Below, piece by piece: positions 15,900 through 27,915 of a stretch of DNA of 64,000 nucleotides (position 1 is its first letter; the number at the start of each line of letters is the position of its first letter). Source of the stretch: a virus; IMG/VR virus record IMGVR_UViG_3300023174_000080, positions 1 through 64,000 of that record. The stretch is one strand, 5' to 3'. The translations under genes and the position numbers were made by a program. A model generated the notes under the pieces. The model was given only the letters and a program-made list of their open reading frames with translations. It searched no databases and was not told the DNA's origin.

Positions 15900-16175
15900 T
15901 TAATATTAGGTAGTAGGCTTAGAAGTAGCCATCTTTAAAGAGTGAAACAAAATCCTTGGCTAGTAGATATATGTCCGTTAACAGCGGAGAGCTATGTGAA
16001 GTTTACCCGAAGAAAGCGTAACGAAACCCGATGTCAGTTACGTAGACAACAAGCTAGTAGGTAAGCTCTAATATATCATAAATCTTGGGGGTTGGGTAAT
16101 AGGAAAGTCAGTTAATTCTGATGGGATAGAAAAAAACTTAAGATATAATCATTGAAAAGATTATATTGTTTATTT
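15900..16175 (+). ncRNA. structured RNA with a 23S rRNA GTPase-centre mimic
   Basis: No gene fits the 329 bases between the endolysin and 16229. Bases 15908-15944 closely match the L11-binding domain of 23S rRNA (E. coli about 1055-1090, from memory): AGG..GT.GGCTTAGAAG.AGCC, then ATC and TTTAAAGAGTG, one base shorter than E. coli. The hairpin loop contacted by L11 and thiostrepton is complete. Further on, AGAGCT (15992-15997) can pair with AGCTCT (16074-16079), CGTAAC with GTTACG, and GCTAGTAG occurs twice. A terminator ends the region. Only a fragment of 23S is present, so this is not an rRNA gene. Confidence 0.6.
16143..16175 (+). terminator. intrinsic terminator after the ncRNA
   Basis: ATATAATC (16143-16150) pairs with GATTATAT (16159-16166), followed by TGTTTATTT. 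It is AT-rich but perfect, and could also act as an attenuator for the gene at 16229. Confidence 0.65.
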
Positions 16176-16228
16176 CCTCCCTTTCTTTAGTGTAGTAACA
16201 CGCCTAATATTGATGTTGATGAGGAAAC

Positions 16229-16492
16229 ATGAAAAAAAATAAAATTGGTAAATGGAATTATAGAGTTTTTAAAACAATTAAATCAAATGGTTTAGAAGAA
16301 TATGGTATAGTAGAAGTATTTTATGACACTAAAGATAAACCAGTTGGATACACTGATTTTCAAATTCCTTGGGGTGAAAATTTAAAAGATTTGAAATGGG
16401 AATTATCTTCTATGTTAAAATCTTGTAGACAAGAAGTTTTAACAGAACAAGATTTTAAACCGAGAAAAAAAAATGCAAAAAGCAAAAGTTAA
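16229..16492 (+). CDS. hypothetical protein, W-YRV-K family, copy 1
   Basis: An 87-residue protein with WNYRVFK, YGIVEVFYD, PVGYTDF and a C-terminal basic tail. The next gene is its tandem paralogue. GAGGA precedes the ATG. The layout (three strands followed by a helix) suggests a compact alpha/beta protein; function unknown. Confidence 0.8.
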   Translation: MKKNKIGKWNYRVFKTIKSNGLEEYGIVEVFYDTKDKPVGYTDFQIPWGENLKDLKWELSSMLKSCRQEVLTEQDFKPRKKNAKSKS

Positions 16493-18050: not shown

Positions 18051-18121
18051 GGGCGATTAGTTAAACGGGATAACAACGGCTTTGCAAGCCGTGATTGACA
18101 GTTCGATTCTGTCATCGTCCA
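18051..18121 (+). tRNA. tRNA-Ala(UGC)
   Basis: All arms fold: acceptor GGGCGAT with ATCGTCC, D-stem GTTA/TAAC, anticodon stem ACGGC/GCCGT around loop TTTGCAA (anticodon TGC), a 4-base variable loop, and T-arm GACAG/CTGTC around TTCGATT. Pair 3-70 is G-T (18053 with 18118), the identity element of alanine tRNA, and the discriminator is A. CCA is not encoded. The next start codon is only 2 bases after the discriminator. Confidence 0.95.
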
Positions 18122-19284: not shown

Positions 19285-19370
19285 GGAGAGTTGCGTGAGT
19301 GGTCTAAACGAGCGGTTTGCTAAACCGTCGCATTCAAAAGGTGCCGTAGGTTCAAATCCTACACTCTCCG
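19285..19370 (+). tRNA. tRNA-Ser(GCU)
   Basis: Class II tRNA: acceptor GGAGAGT with ACTCTCC, anticodon stem GCGGT/ACCGT with loop TTGCTAA (anticodon GCT), a long variable arm, T-arm GTAGG/CCTAC around TTCAAAT and discriminator G, as usual for serine. CCA is not encoded. It reads AGC and AGT codons; AGT is frequent in this AT-rich genome. Confidence 0.95.
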
Positions 19371-19384
19371 CTGGAGGATAAAAT

Positions 19385-22528: not shown

Positions 22529-23302
22529 ATGTCTAATCATATATCTTTTTCTGCTTTAAAGATTTGGAATGACTGTCCTTTTAAATATAAGTTAATTTAC
22601 GTAGATAGTGTTCAAAAATTTCGTGGAAGTGAACATACAGCTTTTGGTACTGCTTTACACGAAGCTTGTGAAAAAAAATTATTAGATAATAATATAGATG
22701 AAGTTGAATGCTTTAATTCTAAATTTGAAGAAGAATTAAAGAAAATTCCTTCTGATATAAATGTAGATAATAAACTTATTACTGAAATGAAAGAGCAGGG
22801 AAAGCAGCTATCTACAATGGCACTTCCCGCTCTTAAAGAAAAGTTTGGCAACTTTAAAGTATTATCTGCCGAAGAAGATATTCTTGAAGCAATCAATAAA
22901 ATCCCAGAGCTAAGTTATAATTTTAAAGGATATATTGATTTAATTCTTCAAACTGAAGATGGAAAAATTCATATTCTAGATTGGAAAACCTGCGCTTGGG
23001 GTTGGGATGCTAAAAAGAAGAGCGATCCAATGATTACATACCAGCTCACTTTTTATAAATACTTCTATGCTCAAAAACATAAGGTAGATCCAAAAAATAT
23101 TGAAACATACTTTGCTCTACTTAAGCGTACAGTAAAAAAAGATAATGTAGAAATATTTCGCGTAACCAGCGGTGACAAAAAAACAGAAAATGCATTTAAC
23201 TTATTAACAAAAGCGCTTTATAGTATTAATAAGAATTTTTTCCCAAAAAATCGCTTAAGTTGTAAATATTGCGAATTTAACAACACAAAGGAATGTCCTT
23301 AA
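22529..23302 (+). CDS. Cas4/RecB-like PD-(D/E)xK nuclease with Fe-S cluster
   Basis: A 257-residue nuclease of the RecB/Cas4 superfamily. Motifs in order: SALKIWNDCPFKYKL (first cluster Cys), FGTALHEACE (motif I), GYIDLI and ILDWKT (catalytic Asp and D-x-K), Q-x3-Y (YQLTFYKYF), and a C-terminal CKYCEF..ECP that completes a four-cysteine iron-sulphur cluster. The family degrades DNA ends or processes single-stranded DNA, in recombination or host DNA breakdown. There is no CRISPR locus nearby. Confidence 0.85.
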   Translation: MSNHISFSALKIWNDCPFKYKLIYVDSVQKFRGSEHTAFGTALHEACEKKLLDNNIDEVECFNSKFEEELKKIPSDINVDNKLITEMKEQGKQLSTMALPALKEKFGNFKVLSAEEDILEAINKIPELSYNFKGYIDLILQTEDGKIHILDWKTCAWGWDAKKKSDPMITYQLTFYKYFYAQKHKVDPKNIETYFALLKRTVKKDNVEIFRVTSGDKKTENAFNLLTKALYSINKNFFPKNRLSCKYCEFNNTKECP

Positions 23303-24282
23303 TGAAAACAGCCGTCATAACAGGTATTACAGGGCAAGATGGAAGCTACCTTGCTGAATTATTATTAGAAAAAGGTTATAAAGTAATAGGTCTAGTGCGT
23401 AGAAGCGCCATGGAAGATAAAAAATTTTATAACATAAATCATCTTCTACAAGATCCTAATTTAGTTTTAGAAAATGGGGATTTAACTGATTCCCCTTCTT
23501 TATGGAGAATCATAAAAGAATATAAACCAGATGAATTTTACAATCTTGCTGCACAAAGCCATGTAGGCGCATCTTTTACCTCCCCAGAAAGCACTTTAGA
23601 AATAAATGCTACTGGGGTTTTAAATTGTCTAGAAGCAATTCGTAATTTAAAGCCTGATACAAAATTTTATCAAGCTTCTACTAGCGAAATGTTTGGAGAT
23701 AATATGAATGCTCCTCAAAATGAAGAAACAGTATTATCTCCTGTTTCTCCATACGCTTGTGCAAAAGTATATGCTCATAATTTAGTTATTAACTATCGTA
23801 AAGCATATAATTTATTTGCATGCTCTGGTATTCTTTTTAATCACGAATCTCCTCGTCGTGGCGAACAATTTGTAACTAGAAAAATTACAAAAGCAGCGGC
23901 ACGAATTAAAATTGGTTTACAAAATGAATTACGTTTAGGAAATTTAGATGCTAAACGGGATTGGGGATATGCAAAGGAATACGTAGAAGGAATGTATTTA
24001 ATGCTACAGCATGAGTCACCAGACGATTATGTACTTGGTACGGGAATAACACACACTATTAGTGAATTTATTACTTGCATATCTGATATTGCTGGTTATA
24101 ATTTATTTAATCATGTAGTTATTGATGATAAATATAAACGTCCTAGTGAAGTTCCTCTATTGCTTGCCGATCCTTCAAAAGCAAAAAGAGTATTAGGATG
24201 GGAACCAAAAACTAATCTAAAACAACTAGCAGAATTAATGTATAATTCTGATCTAGAAAAGGAAAAAAATAATGTCAAATAA
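23302..24282 (+). CDS. gmd: GDP-mannose 4,6-dehydratase
   Basis: A 326-residue extended short-chain dehydrogenase that makes GDP-4-keto-6-deoxy-mannose from GDP-mannose using bound NADP. GITGQDGSYL is the dinucleotide motif, followed by the family signatures AAQSHVGASF, TSEMFG and YACAK (catalytic Tyr and Lys) and FNHESPRRGE. The chosen ATG at 23302 overlaps the previous stop (TAATG) with AAGGA 9 bases upstream; an ATG 9 bases earlier is in frame. First gene of the sugar cassette. Confidence 0.92.
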   Translation: MKTAVITGITGQDGSYLAELLLEKGYKVIGLVRRSAMEDKKFYNINHLLQDPNLVLENGDLTDSPSLWRIIKEYKPDEFYNLAAQSHVGASFTSPESTLEINATGVLNCLEAIRNLKPDTKFYQASTSEMFGDNMNAPQNEETVLSPVSPYACAKVYAHNLVINYRKAYNLFACSGILFNHESPRRGEQFVTRKITKAAARIKIGLQNELRLGNLDAKRDWGYAKEYVEGMYLMLQHESPDDYVLGTGITHTISEFITCISDIAGYNLFNHVVIDDKYKRPSEVPLLLADPSKAKRVLGWEPKTNLKQLAELMYNSDLEKEKNNVK

Positions 24283-25513
24283 AAAAATAAAGATCTTAAC
24301 TTTATCTGATCATCCACTTAGTCCTAGTGGTGTTGGTAGTCAAACTAATTATATACTTCAAGGTCTTCTAAAAACTGGTAAATATCAAATTATTTCTCTT
24401 GGTGGTGCGATTAAACATCAAGATTATAGACCAGTAAAATTTCACGAATTTGGAGATGATTATATTATCATTCCAGTTGATGGATACGGAACTCCAGAAT
24501 TGATTCGTACAATTTTAATGAAAGAAAAGCCTGATATTCTTTGGATGATGACAGATCCACGTTTTTATACATGGCTTTGGAATATGGAACAAGAAATACG
24601 TCCAAACATCCCAATTGTTTATTATCACGTATGGGATAATTATCCATATCCAAAGTTTAATCGTTCTTTTTATTTATCTAATGATAAAATTGCTACCATT
24701 TCAAAGCTTACCAGCGATATTGTTCGTGTAGTAGCACCAGAAGTTGAAGAACAATATATTCCTCATGCAGTAAGCCCAGAACTGTTTAAAATTCTTGATG
24801 AAAAAGAATACTCTCATTTACGTATGAAAGATAAGACGTTATTCTTCTGGACTAATCGGAATGCTCGTAGAAAGATGAGTGGAAGCGTAGTTTGGTGGTA
24901 TAAAGAATTTCTAGATAAAGTTGGACATGATAAAGCTTTCTTATTAATGCATACTGATCCAAAAGATCCACATGGTCAAGATCTTGTAGCTATTGCAGAA
25001 GAGCTTGGACTTACAAAAGAAAATTTTGCTATTTCTGCCGGTAAAGTACCAGCAGTTGATATGGCAAAATTTTATAATGCCGCTGATTGTACAATAAATA
25101 TTAGTGATGCAGAAGGGTTTGGCCTTTCTTGCTTAGAAAGCTTGTCATGCGGAACACCAGTTATAGCTAATAAGACAGGCGGTATGCAAGATCAGTTAAC
25201 TGATGGAGTGGACACATATGGAATCCTTATAGAGCCTTCTAGCCGTGCGGTGATTGGTTCACAAGATGTACCATATATTTATGAAGATCGCGTAAGTAAT
25301 ACTGATGTTGTTAATGCAATGATAAAAATTCATAATATGACGCGAGAAGAACGCAAGGCGCTTGGAAAAAAGGGATATGATAATGTTCAAAAGAACTTTA
25401 ATTTCCAAACTTTCCAAGAAACTTGGGATAAACTTCTAAGTGAAGTTCATGAAAAATATGGTTCTTGGGAAACACGCAAGGGATATAAATCTTGGAGCGT
25501 AAAGGAATACTAG
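24272..25513 (+). CDS. GT4-type glycosyltransferase 1
   Basis: A 413-residue GT-B fold glycosyltransferase. The N-terminal half begins with a Rossmann-like strand and SPSGVGSQ glycine loop; the C-terminal half has the GT4 donor-binding motif AEGFGLSCLESLSCGTP with E-x7-E. It transfers a nucleotide-activated sugar with retention. It overlaps gmd by 11 bases. Confidence 0.88.
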   Translation: MSNKKIKILTLSDHPLSPSGVGSQTNYILQGLLKTGKYQIISLGGAIKHQDYRPVKFHEFGDDYIIIPVDGYGTPELIRTILMKEKPDILWMMTDPRFYTWLWNMEQEIRPNIPIVYYHVWDNYPYPKFNRSFYLSNDKIATISKLTSDIVRVVAPEVEEQYIPHAVSPELFKILDEKEYSHLRMKDKTLFFWTNRNARRKMSGSVVWWYKEFLDKVGHDKAFLLMHTDPKDPHGQDLVAIAEELGLTKENFAISAGKVPAVDMAKFYNAADCTINISDAEGFGLSCLESLSCGTPVIANKTGGMQDQLTDGVDTYGILIEPSSRAVIGSQDVPYIYEDRVSNTDVVNAMIKIHNMTREERKALGKKGYDNVQKNFNFQTFQETWDKLLSEVHEKYGSWETRKGYKSWSVKEY

Positions 25514-25514
25514 A

Positions 25515-26720
25515 ATGAAAAAAATATTAATCAATGGTCCAGTATTAAGCAGAAGCGGTTATGGTGAAATGGCTCGTTTTGCATTACGTTCTTTAAAAGA
25601 TAGAAGCGATGTTGAATTATATCTTTTGCCAACATCTTGGGGAAATACCGGTTGGCTTTTTGAAGTTAATGAAGAAAGAAATTTTATTGATTCTCTTATT
25701 GCAAAAACACAACTTTATATACAGCAAAACGGCGGACGACCTCAATTTGATTTGTCTATACAAGTTTCTATTCCAAATGAATGGAAGAAAATAGCGGCTA
25801 TTAATATTGGTTATACCGCTGGCATAGAAACAAATCTCATCTCCCCAGCTTGGTTAGAAACAAGTCAACAGATGGATAAAATTATTGTTATTAGTGAACA
25901 TGCCAAGTCAGGGTTTGTAAATACAATATTTGGTAATCCACAAGGACAGCAATTTAAAGTAACAGTTCCTGTAGAAGTGGTACATTTGCCATATAGAAAT
26001 ACACAAAAGAAAGAAATTGATTTACAATTAAAATATGATTTTAACTTCTTATCTGTTTGCCAATGGGGGCCAAGAAAGAACTTAGATCAAACAATTATTG
26101 GGTTTTTAGAAGAATTTTCTAATGAAGAAGTTGGTTTGGTATTAAAAATTAATACTGCCAATGATTCTATTATGGATAGAGTATTGACTCAAAAAAGGCT
26201 AGAAGTCTTATTAAGTGCATATCCAAATAGAAAATGCTCTATAACCCTTCTGCATGGTCATTTAAGCGATGCAGAAGTGGAATCGCTATACACTCATCCA
26301 AAGATTAAGGCAATCGTTTCTACGACTCATGGAGAGGGTTTTGGATTACCTTTGCTAGAAGCCGCCGCCAATTCCTTACCAGTTATAGCAACAGATTGGA
26401 GTGGTCACACAGATTTCCTATATTTACCAGAAGACGATGATAAGAAAAGAATGTTTGGTAAAATCGATTATGATTTAAAACCAATCGACGCAGCCCATGT
26501 CTGGAAGGGAGTTTTAGAAGAAGGAACACAGTGGGCTTATCCAAAAATGGTAAGTTACAAAGATCGTTTACGTGATTGTTATAAAGATTGGGGTCGATAT
26601 AAGTCACAAGCTAAGAAACTAGCGCCTTGGGTAAAAGAAAATTTTGAAAAAACTAAATTGCAAGATAAGTTTAGCTCTTTATTAACATCAAATAAAGATA
26701 CAGATTTGTTGGTATTATAA
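25515..26720 (+). CDS. GT4-type glycosyltransferase 2
   Basis: A 401-residue GT-B enzyme with SRSGYGEMAR in the N-terminal glycine loop and HGEGFGLPLLEAAANSLP as the donor motif. It lies one base after the preceding stop. Similar in layout to its neighbours at 24272 and 26722, so the three may have come from duplications. Confidence 0.88.
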   Translation: MKKILINGPVLSRSGYGEMARFALRSLKDRSDVELYLLPTSWGNTGWLFEVNEERNFIDSLIAKTQLYIQQNGGRPQFDLSIQVSIPNEWKKIAAINIGYTAGIETNLISPAWLETSQQMDKIIVISEHAKSGFVNTIFGNPQGQQFKVTVPVEVVHLPYRNTQKKEIDLQLKYDFNFLSVCQWGPRKNLDQTIIGFLEEFSNEEVGLVLKINTANDSIMDRVLTQKRLEVLLSAYPNRKCSITLLHGHLSDAEVESLYTHPKIKAIVSTTHGEGFGLPLLEAAANSLPVIATDWSGHTDFLYLPEDDDKKRMFGKIDYDLKPIDAAHVWKGVLEEGTQWAYPKMVSYKDRLRDCYKDWGRYKSQAKKLAPWVKENFEKTKLQDKFSSLLTSNKDTDLLVL

Positions 26721-26721
26721 G

Positions 26722-27915
26722 ATGAAAAAGATAATTTATGTTGGTCAATTTACTGATGCTAGTGGTTATGGTAGTGCCGCTAGAAAATATTTACGCTTAT
26801 TAGATAAATATTTAGATATTAATCAATATGAATTAAAAGTATATAATTCTTCATATGAAGGAAAAGATTCTATTTCCGATAAAGATTTAAAAATATTAAA
26901 TAAATATATATTAAATAATGATCAAATAATAGATTATATTTCTAAAAAAGATTATATTGCACTTTTTCATTTATTACCTTGGGATACGGTATTAATACAA
27001 GATGATAAATATAAAAATAAATCTATAAGAGAAAATGCAAGAGTAAATATAAATTTATCTTATTGGGAAGCAGATAGATTACCAGAATACTGGAGGGATA
27101 TATTTGCAAATCAAATTTATGATAAATTAATTTTGGGAAGTAGCTGGAATAAATTAGTATACGAAAAAGACGTTAGTATACCGATAGATATAATTCCAGT
27201 ACCAATTTCAGTTCCAGAAATTGTTATTAAACCAACTGATATATTTACAATTTTTTCTTTATCTCAATGGCAACCAAGAAAAGGATTTGATATTTTAATT
27301 AAAGCTTTTTATCAAGAGTTCTTTAATCAAGATGATGTAAAGTTATTTATTAAAACTTATAAGAATGAAGCGTTCGCAAAAAATGTGAAAAACGATAAAG
27401 AAGAAATTTTAAAAGAAGCATTACAATATAAAAATTCTGTTAATCACTATTCTGAAAAACCTAAATGTAAATTAGAAATAAAAACAGGAATAGTAGATTA
27501 TGAAGAATTGTTATCATATTATTCTAATGCTTCTATTTTTTGTTTAGCTTCAAAAGGAGAAGGGTTTAGTATTCCTTCTGCCGAAGCAGCTTTATATGGA
27601 TTACCAACGATAACAGCAGATATTGGTGGGCATACAGATTTCCTAGATAAAGATAATAATTTTTTCTTTAACGTAGAACCACAGCCGGTAGAAAATATGT
27701 TTGTTAGTCCTTTATATTCTTCTATTGAAATGAATTTTTTATCTCCAAATATTTTTTCTTTAAGAAAACAACTGAGGAAATCATATAATATTTGGAAAGA
27801 AGATAAAAATAAATTATTAGAAATGGGTAAAAATAGTAGAAATTATGCTTTAAAATATTTTGATGAAAAAGAAATATTTAATAAACTTATGAACTGTATT
27901 ACATTTAAGGAATAA
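26722..27915 (+). CDS. GT4-type glycosyltransferase 3
   Basis: A 397-residue GT-B enzyme with DASGYGSAAR at the N-terminus, FSLSQWQPRKGFD in the linker region and KGEGFSIPSAEAALYGLP as donor motif. More AT-rich than the preceding two genes. Confidence 0.88.
   Translation: MKKIIYVGQFTDASGYGSAARKYLRLLDKYLDINQYELKVYNSSYEGKDSISDKDLKILNKYILNNDQIIDYISKKDYIALFHLLPWDTVLIQDDKYKNKSIRENARVNINLSYWEADRLPEYWRDIFANQIYDKLILGSSWNKLVYEKDVSIPIDIIPVPISVPEIVIKPTDIFTIFSLSQWQPRKGFDILIKAFYQEFFNQDDVKLFIKTYKNEAFAKNVKNDKEEILKEALQYKNSVNHYSEKPKCKLEIKTGIVDYEELLSYYSNASIFCLASKGEGFSIPSAEAALYGLPTITADIGGHTDFLDKDNNFFFNVEPQPVENMFVSPLYSSIEMNFLSPNIFSLRKQLRKSYNIWKEDKNKLLEMGKNSRNYALKYFDEKEIFNKLMNCITFKE

Follow-up and report, generated by a model that had tools for sequence, protein, structure and literature searches.

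The window analysed here is the whole 64-kb stretch of DNA that forms the first part of a virus record with 118,946 bases. An RNA element of about 310 nt lies on its plus strand after the endolysin gene, and the next gene starts at 16229, 18 nt past the end of the element. No long open reading frame covers the element, in agreement with the initial annotation, which had found no gene fitting this region. The nearest tRNA gene is 1.8 kb away. Between the two tRNA genes of this part of the window, a trypsin-like peptidase gene (PF13365; 18312-19130) runs on the opposite strand, and a sugar-modification cluster with GDP-mannose dehydratase and glycosyltransferase genes occupies 23293-27915. The core of the element corresponds to helices H42-H44 of the GTPase centre (GAC) of 23S rRNA, and E. 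coli 23S numbering is used for all GAC positions. The coordinates are collected in Table 1.

Table 1. Features of the RNA element and its surroundings in the window
Feature	Position	Strand	Basis or remark
Whole RNA element (GTPase-centre mimic and inserted domain), about 310 nt	15902-16211	+	R1 covariance model, closing helix
Closing helix, 5′ strand (H42 equivalent), AATATTAGG	15902-15910	+	Perfect complement of 16203-16211
H43 hairpin, GGCTTAGAAGTAGCC	15916-15930	+	Exact match; A1067 = 15921, U1072 = 15926
H43 3′ flank and H44 5′ strand, ATCTTTAAAGAGT	15931-15943	+	Nearly invariant across the family; includes A1084-A1086, G1087 = 15940 and A1088 = 15941
Extension helix, 5′ strand, GAAA	15944-15947	+	Pairing with 16182-16185; helix covaries
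Inserted structured domain, differing among phages	15948-16181	+	RNAalifold, ten relatives
Extension helix, 3′ strand, TTTC	16182-16185	+	Pairing with 15944-15947
H44 tip hairpin, GTGTAGTAAC	16190-16199	+	R1 alignment; U1092 = 16191, A1095 = 16194, A1099 = 16198
Closing helix, 3′ strand (H42 equivalent), CCTAATATT	16203-16211	+	Complement of 15902-15910
tRNA-Ala(tgc)	18051-18121	+	Context, 1.8 kb downstream of the element
tRNA-Ser(gct)	19285-19371	+	Context, 3.1 kb downstream of the element

In the window element, a closing helix of 9 bp takes the place of H42, the H43 hairpin has U at 1072, and H44 is interrupted at 1089/1090 by about 240 nt of further structured RNA. The tip of H44 and the 3′ strand of H42 are thereby found about 245 nt downstream of the 5′ half. 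The segment 16190-16211, GTGTAGTAACACGCCTAATATT, is the counterpart of 23S GCGUAAUAGCUCAC together with the 3′ strand of H42, and its last nine bases pair perfectly with the 5′ strand of the closing helix. The initial annotation placed the rRNA-like sequence, with a complete hairpin, at 15908-15944. The likeness to rRNA is real and the H43 hairpin is exact, but this interval holds only the 5′ strand of H42, H43 and the 5′ strand of H44, and the H44 hairpin and the 3′ strand of H42 lie outside it. The covariance model R1, built from 22 other phage elements with the window excluded, matches 15903-16215 with 57.5 bits (E = 2.6e-14), while its next-best match within the window has E = 4. When the GAC of S. 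aureus 23S rRNA is aligned locally with the window, the score is 51 at the element and 22-23 at the next-best place; since the best score in 20 Markov-shuffled 64-kb windows is 28, the match is not due to chance. Without the insert, the core of the window element is identical to S. aureus 23S rRNA in 46 of 60 aligned columns. The Rfam 15 scan of the window and its neighbourhood does not report the element, even at E ≤ 10. Rfam scans also find no LSU rRNA match in the window. The terminator that had been described here is not supported: an intrinsic-terminator scan found none, and the AT-rich hairpin at about 16140-16170 falls inside the element RNA.

The element is carried by more than 120 phage loci; the copy in the window belongs to a widespread and as yet uncatalogued family of putative phage non-coding RNAs. 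BLAST searches with the element find the same motif in intergenic positions of the jumbo phages CBB and GAP32 and within the tRNA cluster of pf16. In IMG/VR, a pattern scan with the 5′ motif yields at least 119 stretches. None of the 119 listed is flagged as true 23S, and in most of those listed the 3′ motif occurs downstream and is succeeded by a stretch complementary to the 5′ flank. The sequence that is conserved 3′ of the GAC in 23S rRNA is absent from the fetched loci. A scan with the 3′ motif only gives at least 120 matches, and the great majority of the untruncated matches listed have the H43 hairpin upstream. Model R1 also matches bacterial 23S rRNA itself. Bacterial genomes hardly ever contain the element: one 3′ pattern, run against 257 Gb of genomes from bacteria and archaea, gives eight matches, five of which are real elements and three of which (L221, L225 and L227) are chance matches and were left out. 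Chance or coding matches to the 5′ pattern (L040, L044, L047, L083 and L111) were left out as well. Cultured carriers include pf16, UNO-G1W1, 4_4572, Milchi, Astolliot, XacN1, XaC1, XbC2, GAP32, CBB, Serratia phage BF, several Erwinia jumbo phages, Acinetobacter phage ME3 and Vibrio phage 2.275.O. Two loci, L048 and L213, have two copies each. Deposited phage records (such as H22 and H28-H47) contain host 23S rRNA contamination, and 23S-like sequence is found inside Paenibacillus phage Pd_22F (L128). The contaminating matches were set aside, together with L128, which reads as plain 23S.

All three helices of the GAC, with their conserved loops, are present in the family. In 40 full elements, 93.0% of the cells in 21 pairs of H42, H43, H44 and the extension helix are paired; double changes number 223, compared with 68 in shuffles, and slid registers are at most 53% paired. 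Among the 3′-motif-only matches listed, 92.4% of the cells are paired, with 422 double changes against 125 in shuffles, in an alignment that was fitted to the model and leans towards the structure. The closing helix equivalent to H42 covaries in both sets, and the H43 stem itself covaries in the latter. The extension helix, GAAA/TTTC in the window, is GAGA/TCTC in its closest relative, L348. The pairing is conserved in related phages, with strong covariation. For the base triple 1072:1092-1099 there is reportedly a precedent in the work of Conn, Gutell and Draper. Of 75 elements that are non-redundant by sequence, 63 have the triple as C:C-G and 12 have it as U:U-A, counted with no phylogenetic correction; there is no mixed case, and the search expression permitted mixed cases. 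The U:U-A form is found in the window, in all ten aligned relatives and in Acinetobacter phage ME3, and the second copy in L213 also keeps the triple. In bacterial 23S rRNA, the triple is C:C-G in all 55 well-aligned sequences, which come from two phyla only (62 were fetched, and 7 that gave no gapless alignment to the 58-mer were dropped). Coordinated changes of three bases in a phage lineage indicate that the tertiary fold of the GAC is selected. The RNA family has the GAC fold and is under selection as RNA, and the mimicry of the GTPase centre proposed at first holds for the secondary structure as well as for the tertiary base triple.

It is hardly credible that the element is a non-functional fragment of host 23S rRNA, brought in by recombination, or an assembly artefact. 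Although genuine 23S contamination occurs in deposited phage records, all members of the family have UUUGG before the tip of H44 and A1101, neither of which is an rRNA signature, and their closing helices match. Covariation is strong, and intergenic members occur across phages of many hosts. Nor does the element look like an rRNA scar: it is rare in bacterial genomes, belongs to no Rfam family and is probably a phage RNA gene, one that often sits directly between tRNA or tmRNA genes.

Conservation of the individual bases is uneven. U1060 is kept in 75 of 75 phage elements, and U1066, G1063, C1075, G1093, A1098, A1088 and the G1087-C1102 pair are invariant or nearly so. Position 1067 is A in 61 of 75 phage elements and another base in the remaining 14, while it is invariant in the 55 bacterial 23S sequences. 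A1095 varies less than A1067 (A in 73 of 78 phage elements) and is also invariant in the 23S sample, as are G1068, A1070 and A1096, all of which vary in the phage RNA. The window has A at both 1067 and 1095, and it is among the 24 of 75 elements with A1061. Position 1101 is A in the phage RNA and U in rRNA, and 1090 is mostly G in the phage RNA. Since A1067 varies in phages but not in the 23S sample, the fold appears to be selected more than the loop bases that the factors use. In the ribosome, different bases of the GAC are assigned to L11, the translation factors, thiostrepton and the A1067 methyltransferase, and the C-terminal domain of uL11 recognizes the GAC fold. In the phage RNA, conservation keeps the fold for this domain and is relaxed at the loop bases on which translation factors, the A1067 methyltransferase and thiostrepton rely.

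The same bases bear on the question of whether the RNA is a decoy for some other recogniser of the GAC, such as a host nuclease or modifying enzyme directed against phages, a thiopeptide antibiotic or the A1067 methyltransferase. An exact copy of the ribosomal target site would suit such a role, and one viral contig, L122, has only the H43 hairpin, on a long stem. However, thiopeptides and the A1067 methyltransferase require A1067, G1068, A1070 and A1095, and all of these bases, the last less often, vary in the phage RNA while being invariant in the 23S sample. SpoU genes, moreover, are not associated with the element: 2 of 50 element phages have the family, as do 2 of 44 control phages, in a rough comparison with controls that are shorter on average. 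A decoy of this kind is quite unlikely, and the connection that the initial annotation drew to a SpoU methyltransferase, with A1067 as its supposed target, finds no support in these counts or in that base, which is not strictly conserved in the phage RNA. Competition for translational GTPases or for tRNAs, by imitation of the site that meets the tRNA elbow, is improbable. The GAC on the ribosome does touch factors and tRNA, and the element is placed in tRNA arrays, but the loop bases expected to face these ligands vary, and of H42 the RNA has just the tip, which leaves it without the L10/L12 stalk site. Binding of L11, not of factors, is what isolated GAC RNA is known for.

The neighbours of the element vary from phage to phage. 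Same-strand tRNA genes lie within 20 nt of 41 of 104 non-redundant elements (1 kb both sides), compared with 17% for random positions taken from these loci, and none of the 104 has an opposite-strand tRNA near it. Among relatives of the window phage, the element begins a few nucleotides after tRNA-Gly in L349, L350, L352 and L362, and a few nucleotides after tmRNA in L354, while in the window, L348 and L351 it follows the endolysin gene. Phage tmRNA genes share arrays with the element in L030, L038, L061 and L354. A bacterial class A RNase P RNA (L005:9376-9703, minus strand; 263.7 bits) is located with the element in a phage array of about 36 tRNAs, and in another tRNA array about 150 nt separate a ROOL RNA (L066:1503-2100, minus strand) from the GAC-like element. 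Viral contig L122 has, at 1512-1984, a gene for ribosomal protein S12 (Pfam Ribosom_S12_S23, E = 7.9e-29), directly followed by a long perfect hairpin capped by the H43 loop alone, which might be a reduced mimic or might be due to chance.

These arrangements bear on the idea of a cis-regulatory leader, which the initial annotation had suggested for the gene at 16229 by likeness to ribosomal-protein leaders. The close spacing of element and gene in the window would be in keeping with such a leader, but the downstream neighbour is a tRNA in many phages and an unrelated small gene elsewhere, tmRNA or tRNA lies upstream in close relatives, and no ribosomal-protein gene follows the element in the annotated carriers. 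With elements that follow tRNA-Gly, tmRNA or endolysin in the relatives and lie between tRNAs elsewhere, and with no fixed position upstream of a ribosomal-protein operon, regulation of the next gene in cis is very improbable.

On the best reading, the RNA acts in trans, most likely as a decoy or scaffold that engages the uL11 of its host. Action in trans is suggested by four features: the conserved part is the L11 site, none of 50 carrier phages has an L11 gene, no fixed gene lies downstream, and an isolated 58-nt GAC RNA binds L11 (PMC10161774). With no L11 gene in these phages, any L11 partner would be that of the host; RelA/SpoT is also absent from the 50. Taken as a whole, the explanation that a selected phage RNA family with the GAC fold acts in trans on host uL11 is the best available, with moderate confidence. 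The element would be transcribed and processed together with phage tRNA and tmRNA, and the RNA would then bind host uL11, which would either be held off ribosomes or be recruited as a subunit of a ribonucleoprotein. Titration of L11 is the leading, though putative, mechanism, as judged from the conserved fold and bases. Because L11 is abundant and bound to ribosomes, titration would need high expression, and A1101, the frequent G1090 and a three-way junction in place of the two bulged bases of rRNA could make the binding of L11 weaker.

The binding and activation of RelA are mediated by L11 (PMC9998046), and this role, together with the tRNA-array context, suggests that RelA-dependent ppGpp synthesis may be blunted. 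In this weaker step of the proposal, ribosomes poor in L11 would fail to activate RelA, and the phage would thereby avoid the stringent response to be expected from its own consumption of charged tRNAs. The full proposal remains tentative, and we think it somewhat less probable than not: a large and diverse group of phages would keep a free-standing copy of a ribosomal centre, co-expressed with their tRNAs, which strips or blocks uL11 and leaves host ribosomes ‘relaxed’ and, through RelA, blind to uncharged tRNA. If true, phages would be countering the stringent response by means of an RNA.

Inserts of such a size, falling into recurrent classes, suggest an additional function that a simple sponge leaves unexplained. 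In the RNAalifold prediction from ten relatives, 22 of 51 pairs in core and insert keep pairing despite two-sided changes, and many of these 22 belong to the insert. The core is constant across the family while the insert varies in size: L014 has none, and the largest reach about 380 nt, with 87-379 nt added to the 58-nt core. The inserts form several recurrent classes, with motifs well above shuffles, such as GGCACCCCGTAACTGGTAAGGCTGA, GTGCGAAATG with TGATGTGC, and AGACCCTTAGAG ahead of the H44 tip; there is no motif common to inserts of different classes. A second insertion site, at 1077/1078 of H43, holds an extra hairpin in L214, L191, L196, L178, L175, L211, L135, L160, L197, L176 and L153. 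It might be argued that uL11 is merely a structural or anchoring subunit and that the insert does the real work, for example by binding tRNA, the ribosome or a phage protein. The insert is indeed structured, covaries, falls into recurrent classes and is present in nearly all members. Since L014, L025 and L119 have little or no insert, and the classes have no common motif and yet the core is constant, this arrangement is regarded as unlikely.

The phage RNA shares with the GAC of bacterial 23S rRNA (H42-H44, within Rfam LSU_rRNA_bacteria) its helices, the loops of H43 and H44 and the 1072:1092-1099 triple. Unlike the 23S GAC, it stands alone, without the rest of 23S, rather than being embedded in a 2.9-kb rRNA; it has an insert in the 5′ strand of H44, A1101 instead of U1101, variable bases at A1067 and its neighbours, and U:U-A as well as C:C-G triples, while the 55 bacterial sequences have C:C-G only. 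ROOL and GOLLD are large structured RNAs of phages and prophages that are often near tRNA islands and whose function is unknown (PMC12286853). The family resembles them in its tRNA-island location (41 of 104 within 20 nt) but differs in sequence and structure, and the element has no Rfam match to either. Neither of the two contains, to our knowledge, a functional centre of rRNA. Ribosomal-protein leaders share with the element the principle of imitating a protein-binding site of rRNA, but they act in cis before bacterial ribosomal-protein genes, whereas the element occurs in phages, in variable places and with no ribosomal-protein gene after it. We know of no GAC domain in these leaders or in OLE RNA. 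The latter has been proposed to sequester RpsU (PMC12286853). Like the phage RNA, it is a non-coding RNA with a proposed role as the sponge of a single ribosomal protein, but it is bacterial and much larger, with another protein and another fold.

No family in Rfam 15 covers the element, and searches of the open-access literature turned up no description of it; in neither source was there a viral RNA family that stands by itself and rests on an intact functional centre of the ribosome. The parts have precedents; their combination in one putative phage RNA gene, free-standing and remade from such a centre, appears to be new. The RNA would offer phages an RNA-only handle on L11, through which translation factors and RelA would also come within reach. 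What L11 and the stringent response do in infection becomes directly testable by knockout of a small RNA. Since two kinds of selection appear to be separated in the phage RNA, the family also helps to tell the GAC bases needed for folding from those needed for translation. The stabilized 58-nt GAC RNA used for in vitro work carries U1061A (PMC10161774). It is a minimal L11-binding RNA, and its A1061 is shared by 24 of 75 phage elements, but it is a laboratory construct, whereas the phage RNA bears an insert. The phage family would be the natural counterpart of this L11-binding RNA, which has been studied in vitro for decades.
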